Positions 19,912-26,779 of a stretch of 33,066 nucleotides of DNA are shown here, piece by piece (positions within the stretch are counted from its first letter, which is position 1; each line of letters begins with the position of its first letter). The translations under genes and the position numbers were made by a program. Under the pieces are notes generated by a model. That model saw only the letters and a program-made list of their open reading frames with translations, had not been told where the DNA came from and did not search any database. The stretch is from Alphaproteobacteria bacterium (GTDB lineage: Bacteria > Pseudomonadota > Alphaproteobacteria > ATCC43930 > Allostellaceae), in assembly GCA_020852355.1 (NCBI GenBank), contig JADZBA010000376.1, positions 1 through 33,066 of the forward strand. The letters are read 5' to 3'.

Positions 19912-21492
19912 TCACTCGTTGTTCCACAGCGTGAAGAACTCGTCGATCTGCTCCTTGACCTCGTCGGCATCGTGGCCGAGGAGGACGATGCGATGACCGC
20001 TGCCCATGTCGAGCACGGCATTGCCGTCGGGATCCTCCCCGATCGAGCCCAGCAGGTCGGAGACGGCGCCGATCGGCGTCGCCACGGGCTGGCCGTTCAC
20101 CCAGCGGATGAACACCGCGTCGTCGTCGAGAAGGATCTCGTCGTCCCTCGGGCTGAAGTCGGAGATCGTGTCGGCGCCGATGCCGATGCCGACGATGCCG
20201 CACGGGCAGTCCGAGACGGCGTCGGTGAGATCGAGAATGATCCGGTCCTTGCCGTCACCGAGGATCAGCAGGTCGTTGCCGGCGTCGAGGAAGAAGACGT
20301 CGTCGCCCGGACCGCCGTCCACGATGTCGTCGCCGGGGCCGCCGATCAGCTCGTCGTCCGCGAGCCCGCCCTCCAGCGTGTCGTCGTCGAGACCGCCGCA
20401 CAGGTAGTCGAAATCGTCCTGCCCGTGCAGGACGTCGGACCCGGCCCCGCCATAGATGGTGTCGTTCTCCTCGCCGCCCTCGAGGGAGTCGGCGCCCTTG
20501 CCACCGTGCAGATAATCGTGCCCCTCGCCGCCGGTGAGAGTGTCGGTGCCGTCCTCGCCGTAGACGGAATCGTCGTCGCCGCCGCCGCGCAGGCTGTCGG
20601 CGCCTGTTCCACCGAAGAGGGCGTCGCGGTCGAGATCACCGTAGAGCGTATCGTCGCCGTGGTCGCCGTGGGCGGTGTCGGCACCCTTGCCGCCGAAGAA
20701 GGAGTCGTTGCCAGGCGGTGGCGATCCGGGCTGCTCCGGCGCGTCGCCGAGGAAGAGGTCATTGCCCGGGCCACCGTAGCCGGTATCGTTGCCGCCGCCG
20801 GGTTCCAGCCGATCGTTGCCGGCACCGCCGGTCACCTCGTCCTGGCCCGCGCCGGCGACGACCGTGTCGTCGCCGTCGTCGCCGAACATCTGGTTGCCGT
20901 CGTCCCAGGCGACGAGCAAGTCGTTGCCGGCGCCGCCGTAGACGAGATTGAAGCCGTTGTTGCCGTGGACGTAGTCGTTGCCGGCGCCGCCGATGACCGT
21001 GTCGGCGCCGTCCTGGCCGTAGATCTGGTCGTCCCCCTCCCCGCCGTCGACGTGATCGCGTCCCCCGCCGCCGTCGAGCGTGTCCCGGCCGGCCTCGTCG
21101 GTGATCCAGTCGTCGCCTTCGCCGCCTTCCGCGCGATCGTCGCCCGGGCCGGCCAGGATCATGTCCGCTCCCTGGCGGCCGTAGAGGCGGTCGGCATCCG
21201 CCCCGCCGTGCAAGGTGTCGTCGCCGTCGCCGCCGTCGAGCAGGTCCTCCCCCTCCTCGCCGCCGAGGGTGTCGTTGCCGACGCCGCCGGAGACGGTGTC
21301 CTCGCCTGCCTGGCCGCTGAGATTGTCGGCGTCGCCGCCGCCGTCGATCAGGTCGTTGCCGGGGCCGCCCCAGACGAAGTCGCTGCCCAGGTTGCCGCCG
21401 ATCAGGTCGGGGCCGCCGTTGCCGTTGATGTCGTCGTCGCCGTCGCTGCCGACCAGCGTGTCGCCGGCGTCGCTACCTGTAAGCCGAGCCAT
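19912..21492 (-). CDS. Large RTX-type calcium-binding repeat protein
   Basis: A 526-residue acidic protein built from residue ~6 to ~405 of uninterrupted GGxGxDxL-type nonapeptides (e.g. [19 protein letters not shown]), i.e. a long calcium-dependent beta-roll. The last ~120 residues are different: [20 protein letters not shown] and a non-repeat tail ending FTLWNNE, which lacks the DF-hydrophobic end typical of type I secretion signals. A CPC motif ([10 protein letters not shown]) follows the repeats, and one repeat carries a Cys (DYLCGG). No signal peptide or enzymatic domain is found. The ATG at 21492 follows GGGAGG 5 bases upstream. It is divergent from the EF-hand protein gene, and both proteins are predicted to bind calcium. 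It may be a surface or matrix protein (inference). Confidence 0.87.
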
Positions 21493-21715
21493 TCGTGCCT
21501 CCCGAGGTTCGAGATCCGCCGGCTCGGCTCGCGCTGTCGTCGGGCGTTGCCGTGCCGTGCGCTCGATCCTGCGTCGCCCGGTTCGCCCATCCGGTTCATC
21601 CCCCGCCGGGCGCACGCGCGCCGGTATCCGGCGCAGGGTTTCCCGTTCCGGCGCGTGCAACTGGGCGACGGGTGCGGAAGCCCGTCGTCCCCACCCCCCG
21701 AAAGGACGCGTTTCG

Positions 21716-22318
21716 ATGAAGCTCCTCGTTTCCGCCGCGGCGCTGGCCATCGGCCTCGCCGCCGCCGGCGCCGCCGCGGCGCAGACCACCGCCTCGCCCG
21801 GTCCCGGCCCGCGCGGCGCCCGCCACATGGACATGATCAAGGCGATGGACGCCGACGGCGACGGCAAGGTCTCGAAGGCGGAGTTCCTCGCCTACCAGCC
21901 TCAGGGCCGCGGCAACCTCGACGCCGACGGCGACGGCCGCATCACCCGGGCGGAGTTCATGGCCCCGCACGGCGGTCCCGGCTCCGACCGCTGGAACGCC
22001 CGCATGGACGAGCGGCGCGACGCCGTCTTCAAGAAGCTCGACGCCAACGGCGACGGCGTCATCAGCCGCGAGGAGTTCGGTCAGCTCCGCGGCCGCGTCA
22101 TGGCGACCGCGGGCGAACCTTCCGCCGATCGCCGCGGGCGGTTCGAGAAGTCGCGCGCCGAGATGTTCCAGCGCCTCGACAAGAACGGCGACGGCGTGAT
22201 CGACGCCGCCGAGCGCACGGCCAGCCGCGAGGCCGCCTTCGCCCGCCTCGACAGGAACGGCGACGGCTTCGTCACCACCGACGAGCTGCCGCGGCGCGGC
22301 CACCGCCGCGACCGCTGA
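21716..22318 (+). CDS. Exported EF-hand calcium-binding protein (five EF-hand loops)
   Basis: A 200-residue protein with a clear Sec signal peptide (MKLLVSAAALAIGLAAAGAA, cut near residue 22) and five canonical EF-hand loops: residues 45-56, 69-80, 109-120, 155-166 and 179-190 (DADGDGKVSKAE, DADGDGRITRAE, DANGDGVISREE, DKNGDGVIDAAE, DRNGDGFVTTDE). All keep Asp/Asn at positions 1, 3 and 5 and Glu at 12, so all five should bind Ca2+ in the periplasm or outside. AAAGGA lies 9 bases before the ATG. The gene is immediately upstream of an ECF sigma factor and may share its transcript. Confidence 0.92.
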   Translation: MKLLVSAAALAIGLAAAGAAAAQTTASPGPGPRGARHMDMIKAMDADGDGKVSKAEFLAYQPQGRGNLDADGDGRITRAEFMAPHGGPGSDRWNARMDERRDAVFKKLDANGDGVISREEFGQLRGRVMATAGEPSADRRGRFEKSRAEMFQRLDKNGDGVIDAAERTASREAAFARLDRNGDGFVTTDELPRRGHRRDR

Positions 22319-22411
22319 GGGCGGGACGTGACCGCCGTCGCCGGCGTCCTGCCATCCGCCCCGGCTCCCGCCGGGGCGGCGAGGACGGCGACGGCGGGCT
22401 ATTCTCGCGCG

Positions 22412-22981
22412 ATGGCCGACTCGGCCGAGACCGACGAGACGCTGATGGCGCGGGCGGGACGGGGGGACCGCCTCGCCTATGCGCGGCTGGTCGACCGCCA
22501 CCTGCGCCGCGTCCACGCCGTCGCCCGCCGCTTCCTCGCCGACGGGCCGGAGGCCGAGGACGTGGCCCAGGAGGCGTTCCTCAGGGTCTGGACCCAGGCG
22601 CCGCGCTGGCAGCCGGACGGCGCCCGCTTCACCACCTGGCTCTACCGCATCACGGTCAATCTCTGCATCGACCGCAAGCGCAGGGTGACGCCGCTGCCGC
22701 TGGAGGCCGCCGGCGAGCCCGAGGACGGGCGCCCCGACGGCTTCGCCGCCCGCCATCGCGACGAGGTCCAGACGGCACTCTCGGGCGCCATCGCGCTCCT
22801 GCCGGACAGCCAGCGCGCGGCGGTGCTGCTCAGCTACTATGAGGGGCTCGGCAACGCCGAGACGGCGACGATCCTCGGCACCACGGTCGGCGCCGTCGAA
22901 TCGCTGCTGGTCAGGGCGCGCCGTGCGCTCAAGGATCGTCTCGGCGGCGTGCTCGCCGGGGCGCTGGAGGAGGGGCCATGA
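22412..22981 (+). CDS. ECF-type RNA polymerase sigma factor
   Basis: A 189-residue group IV sigma factor with only regions 2 and 4. Region 2 shows YARLVDRHLRRVHAVARRFL, EAEDVAQEAFLRVW and FTTWLYRITVNLCIDRKRR (core binding and -10 recognition). Region 4 shows LLPDSQRAAVLLSYYEGLGN followed by the helix-turn-helix ETATILGTTVGAVESLLVRA. The start is uncertain: ATG 22412 gives a normal ECF N-terminus (MADSAETDETLMARA), while an in-frame GTG at 22328, with GAGGG upstream, would add 28 low-complexity residues. It overlaps the next gene by 4 bases (ATGA), so it is co-translated with a probable anti-sigma protein. Confidence 0.92.
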   Translation: MADSAETDETLMARAGRGDRLAYARLVDRHLRRVHAVARRFLADGPEAEDVAQEAFLRVWTQAPRWQPDGARFTTWLYRITVNLCIDRKRRVTPLPLEAAGEPEDGRPDGFAARHRDEVQTALSGAIALLPDSQRAAVLLSYYEGLGNAETATILGTTVGAVESLLVRARRALKDRLGGVLAGALEEGP

Positions 22982-23310
22982 CCGACGACGTCCGCCGGGA
23001 GGATGCGCGGGCCGCGCGCGAGCGGATGCTCGACCGCGCGCTCGACCGGGCGCTGGCGCGCGCCCCCGACCCCGAGCCGCCCGCCGACCTCGCCCACCGC
23101 ATCCTCGCCGCCGCGTGGCGGACGCCGCAGGAACCGCCGCCGGCGCGGGCCGCCTGGTTCGTGCGGCCGCGGGGGGTGGCGGCGACGCTGGCGGCGGCCG
23201 CGGTCTGCGGCTTCCTGGTGGGCTGGGCCGAGCCCATGGTGATCGCCGACGCCCAGGCGCTGGACGTGGTGACCGTGGCCTTCGGGCCGGAGGCGGAGAT
23301 CGACCAGTGA
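22978..23310 (+). CDS. Small single-TM protein, probable anti-sigma factor
   Basis: A 110-residue protein: a charged, alpha-helical cytoplasmic N-terminal half (REDARAARERMLDRALDRAL, then PPADLAHRILAAAW), one transmembrane helix at about 66-84 (VAATLAAAAVCGFLVGWAE) and a short periplasmic tail. It is not clearly a member of a named anti-sigma family. The layout (sigma-binding-size cytoplasmic region, one TM helix, gene overlapping the sigma gene by ATGA) argues for an anti-sigma role, as for CnrY-like proteins. The gene also overlaps the following sensor-like gene by GTGA. Confidence 0.65.
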   Translation: MTDDVRREDARAARERMLDRALDRALARAPDPEPPADLAHRILAAAWRTPQEPPPARAAWFVRPRGVAATLAAAAVCGFLVGWAEPMVIADAQALDVVTVAFGPEAEIDQ

Positions 23311-23795
23311 CCATGCCGGCCGATGCGGGCGCGGTGGCGACCGGACGGCGCTGGCGGCGCTGGCTGCTGCCCGCCTGCCTGCTCGCCTCGCTCGCCTTCA
23401 ACGTCTTCCTCGGCAGCATCCTGGTCGGCCGGCTCACTCATGACCGGGCGCGGGGCGAGCCGTGGATGATCGCCTCGCTGCGCGAGTTCACCGAGAAGCT
23501 GTCGCCCGGCATGCGCGAGGCGGCGCGCGAGAGCTTCCGCGCCCGCCGCCCGGCGCTCGCCCGCGAGCGCCAGGAGCTGCGCGACGCCCGCTTCGCCGTC
23601 GCCCGCGCCCTGACCGCGGAGCCCTTCGACAGCGCCGCGGCGACGCGCGCCTTCGAGCGCCTGCGCGAGGCGACCGGCGCGATCTCGCGCACGACCCAGG
23701 AGGCGATCGTCGAGGCGGCGGCGCGGCTGCCGGCCGAGACGCGCCGCGAGCTCGTCGAGCGCGCCCCGCGCCTGTCGCGCCAGCCCCGGCCGTAG
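23307..23795 (+). CDS. Membrane-anchored periplasmic sensor-like protein (CnrX/Spy-like, heavy-metal-sensor family)
   Basis: A 162-residue protein with a basic N-terminus, one TM helix (~19-41, WLLPACLLASLAFNVFLGSI) and an Arg/Glu-rich helical periplasmic domain (LREFTEKLSPGMREAARESF, RPALARERQELRDARFAVAR). This layout fits the periplasmic 'metal_resist' sensors of CnrX type and Spy-like chaperones. The metal-binding His residues of CnrX are not apparent: only one His follows the TM segment, so the signal may not be nickel or cobalt. GTG 23307 was chosen because GGAGAT is 6 bases upstream and the GTGA overlap is intact; ATG 23313 is the alternative. It probably controls the sigma factor together with the preceding small membrane protein. 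Confidence 0.7.
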   Translation: MTMPADAGAVATGRRWRRWLLPACLLASLAFNVFLGSILVGRLTHDRARGEPWMIASLREFTEKLSPGMREAARESFRARRPALARERQELRDARFAVARALTAEPFDSAAATRAFERLREATGAISRTTQEAIVEAAARLPAETRRELVERAPRLSRQPRP

Positions 23796-23818: not shown

Positions 23819-25249
23819 TCACCCCTTGATGCAGACGAGCGGCTCGAGGTGTGCGACGCGGCGGGCGAGGCCGGCCTTCTCGGTGACCTCGGCGATGCGG
23901 TGCAGATCCTTGTAGGCGCCCGGCGCTTCCTCGGCGATGCCGCGGGTCGACGGGCTGCGGACGAGGATGCCCCGGGTGGCGAGGTCGTCCTGCACCTTGC
24001 GTCCGCTGTAGAGCTTCAGCGCGGCGTGCCGGCTCATGGCCCGACCGGCGCCGTGGCACGCCGAGCCGAAGCTCGCCGCTTCCGCGGTTGCCGCTCCGGC
24101 CAGGACGTAGGAGCCGACGCCCATGCTGCCGCCGACGAGGACCGGCTGGCCATATGGCCTCAGGCGGTCGGGGAGGGCAGGGGAGCCCGGCCCGAGCGCC
24201 CTGGTCGCGCCCTTGCGATGCACGAACAGCGTGCGGTCAACACCGTCGACGGTATGCGTCTCCTCGCGGCAGGTGTTGTGCGAGACGTCGTACAGGAGGT
24301 CGAGCTGCGCACCGGGAAAGACCCTGGAGAAGGTCTCGCGGGTCAGCGCCGTGAGGATCTGCCGGTTGGCGAGCGCGCAGTTGGTCGCGGCGCGCATCGC
24401 GCCGAGATAGCTCCGGCCGAGCTCGGAGGCGATCGGCGCGCAGGCGAGCTCCCGGTCCGGCGGACGGAATCCCTGCCGCGGCGCGGCCACCGCCATGGCG
24501 CGCAGGAAGTCGGTGCCGATCTGGTGGCCGAGGCCGCGCGAGCCGCAATGGATGCTCACCACGGCCTGCCGCTTCGTCAGCTCGAAGGCCTTCGCGAGTT
24601 CCCGGTCGTAGAGTTCCGCGACCTGCTGGACCTCGAGGTAGTGGTTGCCCGAACCCAGCGTGCCCGTCTCCTTGCGCTGGCGCCGCTTGGCCTCGTCGGA
24701 GACGAGCCCGGGCGATGCCCCCGCCATCCGCCCGCGGTCCTCGATGCGCTCGAGATCGGCCGGCTCGCCCCAGCCCTGGGCCACCGCCCAGCCCGCGCCG
24801 TCCGCCAGCATGGCGTCCATGTCGGCGCCCGCCAGCGCGATCGCGCCCGTCGAGCCGAGGCCGGCGGGAATGGCTTCGAACAGGGCGTCGGCCAGCGCGC
24901 GCTGGTGGGCCTCGATGTCCTTGCGGGTGAGATTGGTGCGCAGCAGGCGCACGCCGCAGGAAATGTCGAATCCCACGCCACCGACGCTGATCACGCCGCC
25001 GGCCGCGGCATCGAATGCGCCGACCCCGCCGATCGGGAAGCCGTAGCCCCAGTGCGCGTCCGGCATCGCATAGGCGGCGCCGACGATGCCGGGCAGGCGC
25101 GCGACGTTGGTCAGCTGCTCGAAGACCTTGTCGTCCATCGCCGCCAGCAGGGCCTCGTCGGCGTAGAAGATCGCCGGGACGTGCATGCCGTCCGCGGGCT
25201 CGACCCGCCAGCACCAGTCGTTCACCTTGTGGAGGCCGGCGACGATCAT
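23819..25249 (-). CDS. rtcB: RtcB family RNA-splicing ligase
   Basis: A 476-residue RtcB protein, which joins RNA ends carrying 2',3'-cyclic phosphate or 3'-phosphate to 5'-OH using GTP and Mn2+. Seen: GVGFDISCGVRLLRTNL (metal-binding Asp/Cys), GTLGSGNHYLEVQ, HCGSRGLGHQIGTDF, DVSHNTCREE, GSMGVGSYVLAG, and the guanylylated His399 in CHGAGRAMSRH. All catalytic elements look intact. The start ATG lies 2 bases after the stop of the archease gene, a tight operon with its known activator. Likely use is repair of broken RNA, including tRNA cut by nucleases. No RtcA or RtcR is visible nearby. Confidence 0.95.
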   Translation of the reverse strand: MIVAGLHKVNDWCWRVEPADGMHVPAIFYADEALLAAMDDKVFEQLTNVARLPGIVGAAYAMPDAHWGYGFPIGGVGAFDAAAGGVISVGGVGFDISCGVRLLRTNLTRKDIEAHQRALADALFEAIPAGLGSTGAIALAGADMDAMLADGAGWAVAQGWGEPADLERIEDRGRMAGASPGLVSDEAKRRQRKETGTLGSGNHYLEVQQVAELYDRELAKAFELTKRQAVVSIHCGSRGLGHQIGTDFLRAMAVAAPRQGFRPPDRELACAPIASELGRSYLGAMRAATNCALANRQILTALTRETFSRVFPGAQLDLLYDVSHNTCREETHTVDGVDRTLFVHRKGATRALGPGSPALPDRLRPYGQPVLVGGSMGVGSYVLAGAATAEAASFGSACHGAGRAMSRHAALKLYSGRKVQDDLATRGILVRSPSTRGIAEEAPGAYKDLHRIAEVTEKAGLARRVAHLEPLVCIKG

Positions 25250-25251
25250 CG

Positions 25252-25734
25252 TCAGACGTCCACGACGCACTGGGCACGCCAGCGTCCGTCCGGCTGCCGC
25301 GTCACGCCGAGCTCGGTGAAGGTGGCGCCCTTGACCTCGACCGCCGGCTTGTGGCGCGCGGGATCGATCGCCTCTCCGAAGGCCGTCGCGTCGAGGTGGT
25401 CGTCCTCGATCGCGACCTCGAAGCGGCCGAACAGCATCTCCTCGGTCGCCATCGCCGCGATCAGGCGGTTCAGCCAGTCCAGGAGGAGGATTTCGCGGTC
25501 GGGCGCCGCGCAGGCGATCTCGATCCGCCTCGTCGGACGAATCGCCGCGGGGTCGGTGATCACGGACGTCAGGGCCATCGCGGCGTGCGCGAACGCTTCC
25601 GCGGGCGTGCGCCCGTAGCCGCGGACCCCCACGTCCGACCCGTGCGGGAACGTCTCCCAGGGCACGCGCAAGAGCGGATCCTCCAGGGTACCGGCCAAGG
25701 TCGTCGCTCCGGCGACGAGCCCCCAAGAACGCAT
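25252..25734 (-). CDS. Archease (RtcB cofactor)
   Basis: A protein of up to 160 residues matching the archease family, which speeds up RtcB guanylylation and turnover. Family marks: WETFPHGSDVGVRGYG (with the conserved Asp) near the N-terminus, LLLDWLNRLIAAMATEEMLF in the middle, and GEAIDPARHKPAVEVKGATF near the end. The start is uncertain: ATG 25734 is used, but known archeases begin close to the HGSDVGV segment, so an internal start (a TTG about 8 bases behind a GGAGG) is possible. It lies upstream of rtcB with only 2 bases between stop and start. Confidence 0.88.
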   Translation of the reverse strand: MRSWGLVAGATTLAGTLEDPLLRVPWETFPHGSDVGVRGYGRTPAEAFAHAAMALTSVITDPAAIRPTRRIEIACAAPDREILLLDWLNRLIAAMATEEMLFGRFEVAIEDDHLDATAFGEAIDPARHKPAVEVKGATFTELGVTRQPDGRWRAQCVVDV

Positions 25735-25888
25735 GGCGGCCGGCGGGCCGCCTTGATCCGCATCAACGCCGGCTCCGGCCCGGCCGACGCCATCCGCCCG
25801 CCGTCCGCGGCGGCCGCCGCGCCGCCGGGTTGTCCGCTGTGGCAGGCGCGGGTAGGGTCCGCCGCGCCCCGTCCCAGCCGGAACCGTC

Positions 25889-26779
25889 ATGGCCCTGTTC
25901 GGCGCCCGCACGCCGCTCGACCTGCTCCGCGACTACCGCAAGCGGCTCGTCACCACCGTCGCGCCCGCCGACCAGATGGTGCTGCGCTTCGACGCTGCGA
26001 CCATGGCGCGGATCGGCGAGAAGAGCTGGGAGGACCAGTATTTCCGCGTCGGCGAGGCGGCGCTGCGGGCCGTGGTGCGGGCGATGCTGCTGGCCGAGAA
26101 GACGGACCTCGCCTCGATCCTCGACCTGCCCTGCGGGCACGGCCGGGTCCTGCGCACGCTGCGCGCCGCCTTTCCCGGCGCGCGCATCGCGGCCTGCGAC
26201 CTCGATGCGGGCGGCGTCGAGTTCTGCGCGCGCACCTTCGCCGCCGAGCCGGTGCATTCGGCGGTCGATCCCGCCGCCATCCCGCTCACCGGCACCTTCG
26301 AGCTGATCTGGTGCGGCTCGCTGCTGACCCATGTCGACGCGGCGCGCTACGCCGCCTTCGTGCGCTGGTTCCTCGACCGGCTGGCGCCGGAGGGCCTGCT
26401 GGTCTTCACCAGCCACGGGCGCTGGTCGCTCGACTACCACCGGACATATCCCTACATCGCCGAGGACCGCTTCGAGGCGATCGTCGCCGACGTGGCGGCG
26501 ACGGGGTTCGGCTACCGCGACTATCCGGGCCAGGCGGAATACGGCATCTCCATCGCCCTGCCGTCCTGGGTCGCGCGGCTCGTCGAGGGCCACCGCGACG
26601 CGACCCTGCTCGCCTATCACGAGCGCGGCTGGGGCCACCACCAGGACGTCGTCGTGGTGTGGAAGAAGCCGATCGACGTCCCGCCGGGGCTGGAGCGTCC
26701 GCGCCCGGCGATCTACCGCGGGCACTACGACAAGTTCGCTCTCGCTGCTTCGGCCGGGTCGGGCACCAGCGAGCGGTAG
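25889..26779 (+). CDS. Class I SAM-dependent methyltransferase
   Basis: A 296-residue protein. The SAM-binding motif I is ILDLPCGHGRVLRTLRAAFP (~77-96), followed by the acidic ACDLDAGGVEFC, then ELIWCGSLLTHVD and LAPEGLLVFTSHGRWSL. A C-terminal segment (GWGHHQDVVVVWKKP) closes the fold. The substrate is not evident, but the next three genes on the opposite strand are glycosyltransferases, so a sugar or surface-polysaccharide methylation is plausible (inference). The 3' end overlaps the end of the convergent glycosyltransferase gene by 55 bases. The ATG at 25889 has no strong ribosome-binding site. Confidence 0.88.
   Translation: MALFGARTPLDLLRDYRKRLVTTVAPADQMVLRFDAATMARIGEKSWEDQYFRVGEAALRAVVRAMLLAEKTDLASILDLPCGHGRVLRTLRAAFPGARIAACDLDAGGVEFCARTFAAEPVHSAVDPAAIPLTGTFELIWCGSLLTHVDAARYAAFVRWFLDRLAPEGLLVFTSHGRWSLDYHRTYPYIAEDRFEAIVADVAATGFGYRDYPGQAEYGISIALPSWVARLVEGHRDATLLAYHERGWGHHQDVVVVWKKPIDVPPGLERPRPAIYRGHYDKFALAASAGSGTSER

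Follow-up and report, generated by a model that had tools for sequence, protein, structure and literature searches.

The sensing of calcium by bacteria outside of the cytoplasm is poorly understood. In Caulobacter vibrioides, the gene of the periplasmic EF-hand protein CaBP (CCNA_02838) adjoins sigV (CCNA_02837) (PMC13171946, 2026). Transcription of cabp depends on SigV, and the cabp promoter, mapped by 5'RACE as GGAAA-13 nt-CGTTCA, is SigV-dependent and rises with EGTA and acid, i.e., the two treatments to which both cabp and sigV respond; in addition, sigV is transcribed separately from a promoter inside cabp, and SigT also contributes to the system (PMC13171946). The membrane link of this circuit was given as a question mark, no anti-sigma factor or sensor being named (PMC13171946).

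As regards gene organisation, the CnrYXH and NccYXH systems of Cupriavidus metallidurans consist of a cluster encoding a sigma factor, an anti-sigma factor with one transmembrane (TM) helix and a sensor of the CnrX/NccX fold, also with one TM helix, the genes being arranged in the order Y-X-H. Class II (CnrY-like) anti-sigma factors embrace the sigma factor with two short helices, and the metal ligands of CnrX comprise histidines along with Met123. CnrY is a short anti-sigma factor with two cytoplasmic helices (PMC4598750), and CnrX needs Met123 (PMC7689651). The RpoE8 operon of Azospirillum brasilense (AMK58_24940-24950) comprises genes for a sigma factor, a hypothetical protein and a periplasmic heavy metal sensor, with no EF-hand gene reported (PMC12826043). 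The periplasmic proteins Spy, CpxP and ZraP are soluble.

The locus considered here belongs to a stretch of 33,066 nucleotides from an alphaproteobacterium, referred to as the window, where four genes were delineated from position 21716 to 23795. Like in the CaBP-SigV system, a gene for an exported EF-hand protein directly precedes an ECF sigma gene, and the promoter form is the same (GCGACGGAAA-N13-CGTTCA in Caulobacter), although CaBP has three EF loops against five in the window protein and the window promoter has diverged. Like in CnrYXH-type regulation, the sigma gene is clustered with genes for an anti-sigma-like protein and a periplasmic sensor, each with one TM helix; unlike it, the order is sigma, anti-sigma, sensor, the metal ligands are missing, no efflux pump lies beside the operon and an EF-hand gene heads it. 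As annotated, the RpoE8 operon shares the three-gene core.

Gene content and conservation of the locus

The preliminary description had proposed an exported EF-hand protein, an ECF sigma factor and two single-TM proteins, the last three genes joined by short overlaps, and all four ORFs on the + strand were verified together with their Pfam matches. The first (P0001, 21716-22318, 200 residues), the counterpart of CaBP, has a Sec-type signal peptide by inspection and five canonical 12-residue calcium loops (Pfam EF-hand_5, 1.8e-32, over five stretches), which bears out its assignment as a calcium binder from sequence; throughout the family, the loops read D-x-[ND]-x-D-G-x-[ILV]-x-x-x-E. The second (P0002, 22412-22981), the counterpart of SigV, is an ECF sigma factor (Pfam Sigma70_r2, 3.3e-23, and r4_2, 4.5e-15; NF004113 above its cut-off), for which an in-frame GTG at 22328 is a possible upstream start yielding a longer form. 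The third (P0003, 22978-23310, 110 residues) overlaps the sigma gene by ATGA and the fourth (P0004, 23307-23795, 162 residues) overlaps P0003 by GTGA, exactly as had been proposed, the overlaps falling at the starts 22978 and 23307.

Around the module, an RTX gene with 14 HemolysinCabind stretches (19912-21492, - strand) is divergent and has a 223-bp intergenic region in common with the EF-hand gene. It has no match at the module in three genus relatives, one of which (L016) carries a DM13-domain gene in its place. Downstream on the - strand (23822-25911), genes for an RtcB RNA ligase and an archease lie side by side; the other neighbours are a DnaE-type DNA polymerase further upstream and a methyltransferase.

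The four-gene order is kept in three further complete genomes from this genus (L016, L017, and L018), that is, in four of four genus members with the window itself, at 46-78% identity (75-78% for the sigma factor and 53-59% for the EF-hand protein), and it recurs far beyond the genus. A scan of named genomes with an alignment of the sigma factor gave 80 loci as best named relatives, among which 76 have a Metal_resist gene two genes after the sigma gene, the remaining four being short contigs; in a sample of 79 loci drawn evenly over the Alphaproteobacteria, the sensor is present in 72. The core of the module is thus composed of the sigma factor, the anti-sigma factor and the sensor, and is widespread in the class.

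The EF-hand gene is a frequent and not an obligatory member of this module. In 59 of the 80 named loci, a multi-EF-hand gene ends just upstream of the sigma gene on the same strand, and EF-hand ORFs were met only once elsewhere in the flanks of these loci; such a gene stands immediately 5' of the sigma gene in 35 of the 79 evenly drawn loci and in 46 of 47 loci inspected in the Caulobacter-type genus. As such, the link between EF-hand and sigma genes, the loss of which in relatives had been named beforehand as refuting the proposed module, is found within and outside the genus. The other 44 evenly drawn loci have no EF-hand gene, the sigma and sensor genes being otherwise similar, and these include the top-scoring sigma relatives outside the genus. 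On a tree of the sigma factor, EF-linked loci are scattered over the Rhodobacterales, the Caulobacterales and less classified lineages, with 11 changes of the label versus 19 in shuffles. Within the 5.74-Mb source genome, EF-hand_5 matches are confined to the P0001 gene, and no EF-hand ORF lies near seven other ECF genes of this genome.

That the EF-hand gene came to lie next to the sigma gene by chance could be argued from its absence beside the closest relatives of this sigma factor found beyond the genus. Nevertheless, four genus members retain the order, which is encountered again in Rhodobacterales, Caulobacterales and others, and the two genes share a promoter (see below); since the order holds in the genus and the only EF-hand_5 matches of the genome are found here, the arrangement is not due to chance. 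The probability left to this explanation is next to nil, conservation having effectively refuted it. One genus member (G002) also carries a second, diverged set (L021:1919-4409), where sigma and Metal_resist genes come after an EF-hand gene of opposite orientation; the association therefore arose, or was kept, more than once.

The putative anti-sigma factor and the sensor

The designation of P0003 as anti-sigma-like relies on its position, its topology and a family match below threshold. Matches to DUF3379 and to the anti-sigma family NF052375 (1.1e-5) are both sub-threshold, the latter family being matched by 12 of 37 homologues, and neither a sequence match to solved anti-sigma factors nor a related solved structure was found. 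In a structure model (pTM 0.37), helices are predicted at residues 2-26, 36-48, and 65-83 with the TM segment at about 67-84, i.e., two predicted cytoplasmic helices, as in CnrY, ahead of the membrane, and an acidic tail on the periplasmic side. This tail carries a charge of -6 in P0003, and 61 of 62 homologues likewise have a negative one (median -7). Of note, anti-sigma ORFs at the named loci (L022-L101) come in two forms: the short form is that of the window, and the long form has an additional AYGAD..RWP..ER segment at its N terminus.

P0004 belongs to the Metal_resist family (PF13801, 4.9e-23), with a helical domain resembling those of CnrX, Spy and CpxP. Profile comparison matches Spy (2.8e-6), NccX (0.003) and CnrX (0.028), as well as CpxP and, weakly, ZraP; unlike the soluble Spy, CpxP and ZraP, P0004 is anchored in the membrane and is co-encoded with a sigma factor. 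Its model (mean pLDDT 86.5) retrieves CnrX on top with Foldseek (probability 1.00, target TM 0.61-0.70, best E 0.049), and a second aligner gives CnrX a Z of 9.6, a level reachable by chance among helical bundles. Among 124 homologues, residues S28, N32, G37, and G41 of the TM helix, several arginines and D108 are conserved, and the core domain of the sensor is mildly positive in charge; between EF-linked and unlinked loci, this charge differs weakly in a comparison that ignores relatedness.

The CnrYXH-like layout that had been claimed is borne out, as the locus encodes, next to a sigma factor, an anti-sigma-like protein and a sensor of the CnrX fold that each span the membrane once, and so is the absence from the sensor of the metal ligands expected of such a system. 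From the Metal_resist family and the CnrX-like fold, P0004 might be taken for a heavy-metal (Ni/Co/Zn) sensor of the CnrYXH type, an unrelated EF-hand gene standing in front. However, the periplasmic part of the 124 homologues has no conserved His, Cys or Met, the positions of the HxxxM ligands of NccX being occupied by small residues in P0004, and sensing of Ni or Co is unlikely because the ligands of CnrX are missing. Moreover, no metal efflux pump is found among the neighbours of the module (RTX, DnaE-type polymerase, RtcB, archease, and methyltransferase), and the promoter of the sigma factor is common to the EF-hand gene. Heavy-metal sensing is consequently considered very unlikely, and the label CnrYXH fits the locus as an architecture, not as a metal sensor.

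The two small proteins probably retain the sigma factor at the inner membrane. P0003 would have anti-sigma activity and would contact P0004, and the acidic tail of the former may meet the arginines of the latter.

A promoter shared by EF-hand and sigma genes

A two-block search of the regions upstream of EF-hand genes retrieved a conserved promoter of the form CGACGGAA-N14-CGTT or GCAGGRW-N14-CGTK. Its core, GACG-N17-CGTT, is present in all 46 loci of the Caulobacter-type genus and in 41 of 52 others, where the maximum for any word pair in shuffled sequence was 6. Most loci lacking the EF-hand gene have the same motif directly upstream of the sigma gene, as expected of an autoregulatory promoter, and the GCAGGRW variant takes this place in several of the nearest EF-lacking relatives. 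Within the class sample, one or the other variant occurs in 16 of the 35 loci with an EF-hand gene, where shuffling gives 0.07 on average, and in 16 of the 44 loci without it (0.08 on average after shuffling). A conserved promoter upstream of the EF-hand gene, or of the sigma gene where the EF-hand gene is absent, is the new element brought by this analysis.

In the genus of the window, the variant is GCGCAGGAA-N14-CGTTGAA, located 61-63 nt upstream of the ATG in each of the four genomes. The copy in the window (21631-21660, + strand), the predicted autoregulatory ECF promoter, reads GCGCAGGGT-N14-CGTGCAA, with GCAGGGT as -35 and CGTG as -10. With a scoring matrix built solely from the three genus orthologues, the window sequence being excluded, it is the best of about 66,000 window positions (17.2 versus 13.6 for the next). 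It is a diverged copy (GGGT-N14-CGTG), which is tied to the SigV-type form by way of the genus orthologues; in relatives, this form itself stands before the EF-hand gene. It is followed by a GC-rich hairpin of 11 bp (21663-21690, + strand; -26.2 kcal/mol, z -1.9) and then by GTCCCCACCCCCCGAAAGGA; hairpin and GTCCCCACCCCCCGAAAGGA block are kept in the four genus genomes at the predicted start, i.e., the 5' end, of the EF-hand mRNA, and no Rfam family was found for the hairpin region.

Recurrence of the sigma motif before the EF-hand and the RTX genes had been proposed as a check, and it holds for the former and not for the latter. The upstream region of the RTX gene has no top-scoring match and the gene is not kept beside the module in the genus, so that recurrence there was rejected. 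In several Caulobacter-type genomes carrying this sigma factor, a motif 66 nt upstream of phyR was considered as a sign of regulon membership and likewise dropped, as the upstream regions show a conserved GGAAC-N17-CGTT, the N14 spacing not being conserved; the GGAAC-N17-CGTT form upstream of phyR is presumably that of the general stress sigma factor EcfG. The sigma motif was also seen, in two loci without the EF-hand gene, ahead of a gene that follows the sensor gene and encodes by reading a HlyD/MacA-like adaptor (L031:5512) or a protein of 462 residues (L061:5439), both of which are possible further targets judging by the motif. Besides, a near-identical copy recurs in seven Caulobacter-type genomes (L171 and L173), lying in L173 67 nt before a gene for an exported 140-residue protein with no Pfam match.

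The regulatory coupling of EF-hand and sigma genes put forward in the preliminary description is supported by this shared promoter and, for the Caulobacter counterpart, by experiment (PMC13171946). The published cabp 5' primer ends in GCGCGACGGA, which is the -35 block, and this primer end and the mapped promoter together spell the motif found here (PMC13171946). Both published sigV primers match one locus of the Caulobacter-type genus (L145) with one mismatch each, just before the sigma start and at the sigma end; there, the EF-hand gene and the sigma gene are followed by genes for an anti-sigma-like protein of 150 residues and a Metal_resist protein of 209 residues. A primer search for the C. 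vibrioides locus itself gave no match in the two genera covered, and a search for the Caulobacter sigV promoter by its printed -35 and -10 was abandoned, the match being an unrelated conserved sequence. By analogy, C. vibrioides is predicted to have the same two genes downstream of sigV, and the two genes that follow the sigma gene are strong candidates for the membrane component left blank in the CaBP-SigV circuit.

Place of calcium in the regulatory circuit

Good support exists for the gene set and its conservation, the promoter in common, the missing metal ligands and the correspondence with SigV-CaBP. The explanation towards which we lean, with slightly better than even confidence, is an autoregulated ECF sigma operon in which an anti-sigma/sensor pair frees the sigma factor upon a periplasmic change and the EF-hand protein is the first product. 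The cytoplasmic helices of P0003 would hold the sigma factor inactive, its TM helix and acidic periplasmic tail pairing with the one-TM sensor of CnrX/Spy fold. A periplasmic change, for which a loss of divalent cations or a drop in pH as reported for Caulobacter is the most likely candidate, would alter this pair and free the sigma factor; using the promoter at 21631, the latter would then transcribe the operon that encodes it. The exported EF-hand protein, being the first product, would bind calcium in the envelope and feed back on the stress. The nature of the signal (cation depletion) and the sense of this feedback are inferred, as are the anti-sigma activity of P0003 and its contact with P0004; the calcium reading, putative for this organism, gains support from the published Caulobacter counterpart. 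Several points count against the autoregulated operon, namely (i) the sub-threshold support of P0003 and its want of a solved relative, (ii) the 44 of 79 loci that have no EF-hand gene, (iii) the divergence of the window promoter (GGGT and CGTG), and (iv) the separate sigV promoter inside cabp together with the contribution of SigT (PMC13171946).

The EF-hand protein could alternatively be the input, its calcium-free or calcium-bound form binding to either the sensor or the tail of the anti-sigma factor and thereby setting when the sigma factor is released. Its strong linkage to the sigma gene would agree with such a role, as would the rise of sigV expression upon overproduction of CaBP in Caulobacter (PMC13171946), and the acidic anti-sigma tail facing conserved sensor arginines makes charge-based periplasmic contacts plausible. 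However, the EF-hand gene is missing in 44 of 79 loci, the sensor persisting in nearly all of these, and EGTA induces the cabp promoter to a similar degree whether or not CaBP is present (PMC13171946). Net charge, considered as a clue to the partner, is also inconsistent across the EF-hand proteins. Such a role as input is thus unlikely. Because the gene is absent from so many otherwise similar loci, it is better placed on the output side, and is best read as a sigma-controlled output or modulator, possibly with feedback; for the same reason, calcium cannot belong to the switch in every case.

It is rather doubtful, though less so, that calcium has no signalling part at all, the signal being a general envelope or protein-folding stress, or acid, perceived by a Spy/CpxP-like sensor, with the EF-hand protein as one effector. 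The better profile match of the sensor to Spy than to CnrX, the dispensability of the EF-hand gene and the motif ahead of other genes in the two EF-lacking loci mentioned above, one with the adaptor, would fit, and acid also induces the Caulobacter pair (PMC13171946). The closest folds are nonetheless those of CnrX and NccX, not Spy, and the effect of EGTA in Caulobacter speaks for divalent cations.

Tentatively, then, the autoregulated operon may represent a widespread alphaproteobacterial sigma switch across the membrane linked to calcium, in which the two genes after the sigma gene would be the missing membrane part of CaBP-SigV, a sensor devoid of metal site would read the cation or envelope state of the periplasm, and the EF-hand protein would close a calcium feedback loop. 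For the unnamed membrane link in Caulobacter, the data point to two specific downstream genes and define the shared promoter; with the unit recurring in Rhodobacterales, Caulobacterales and other Alphaproteobacteria, the question of this link becomes directly testable by gene deletion.
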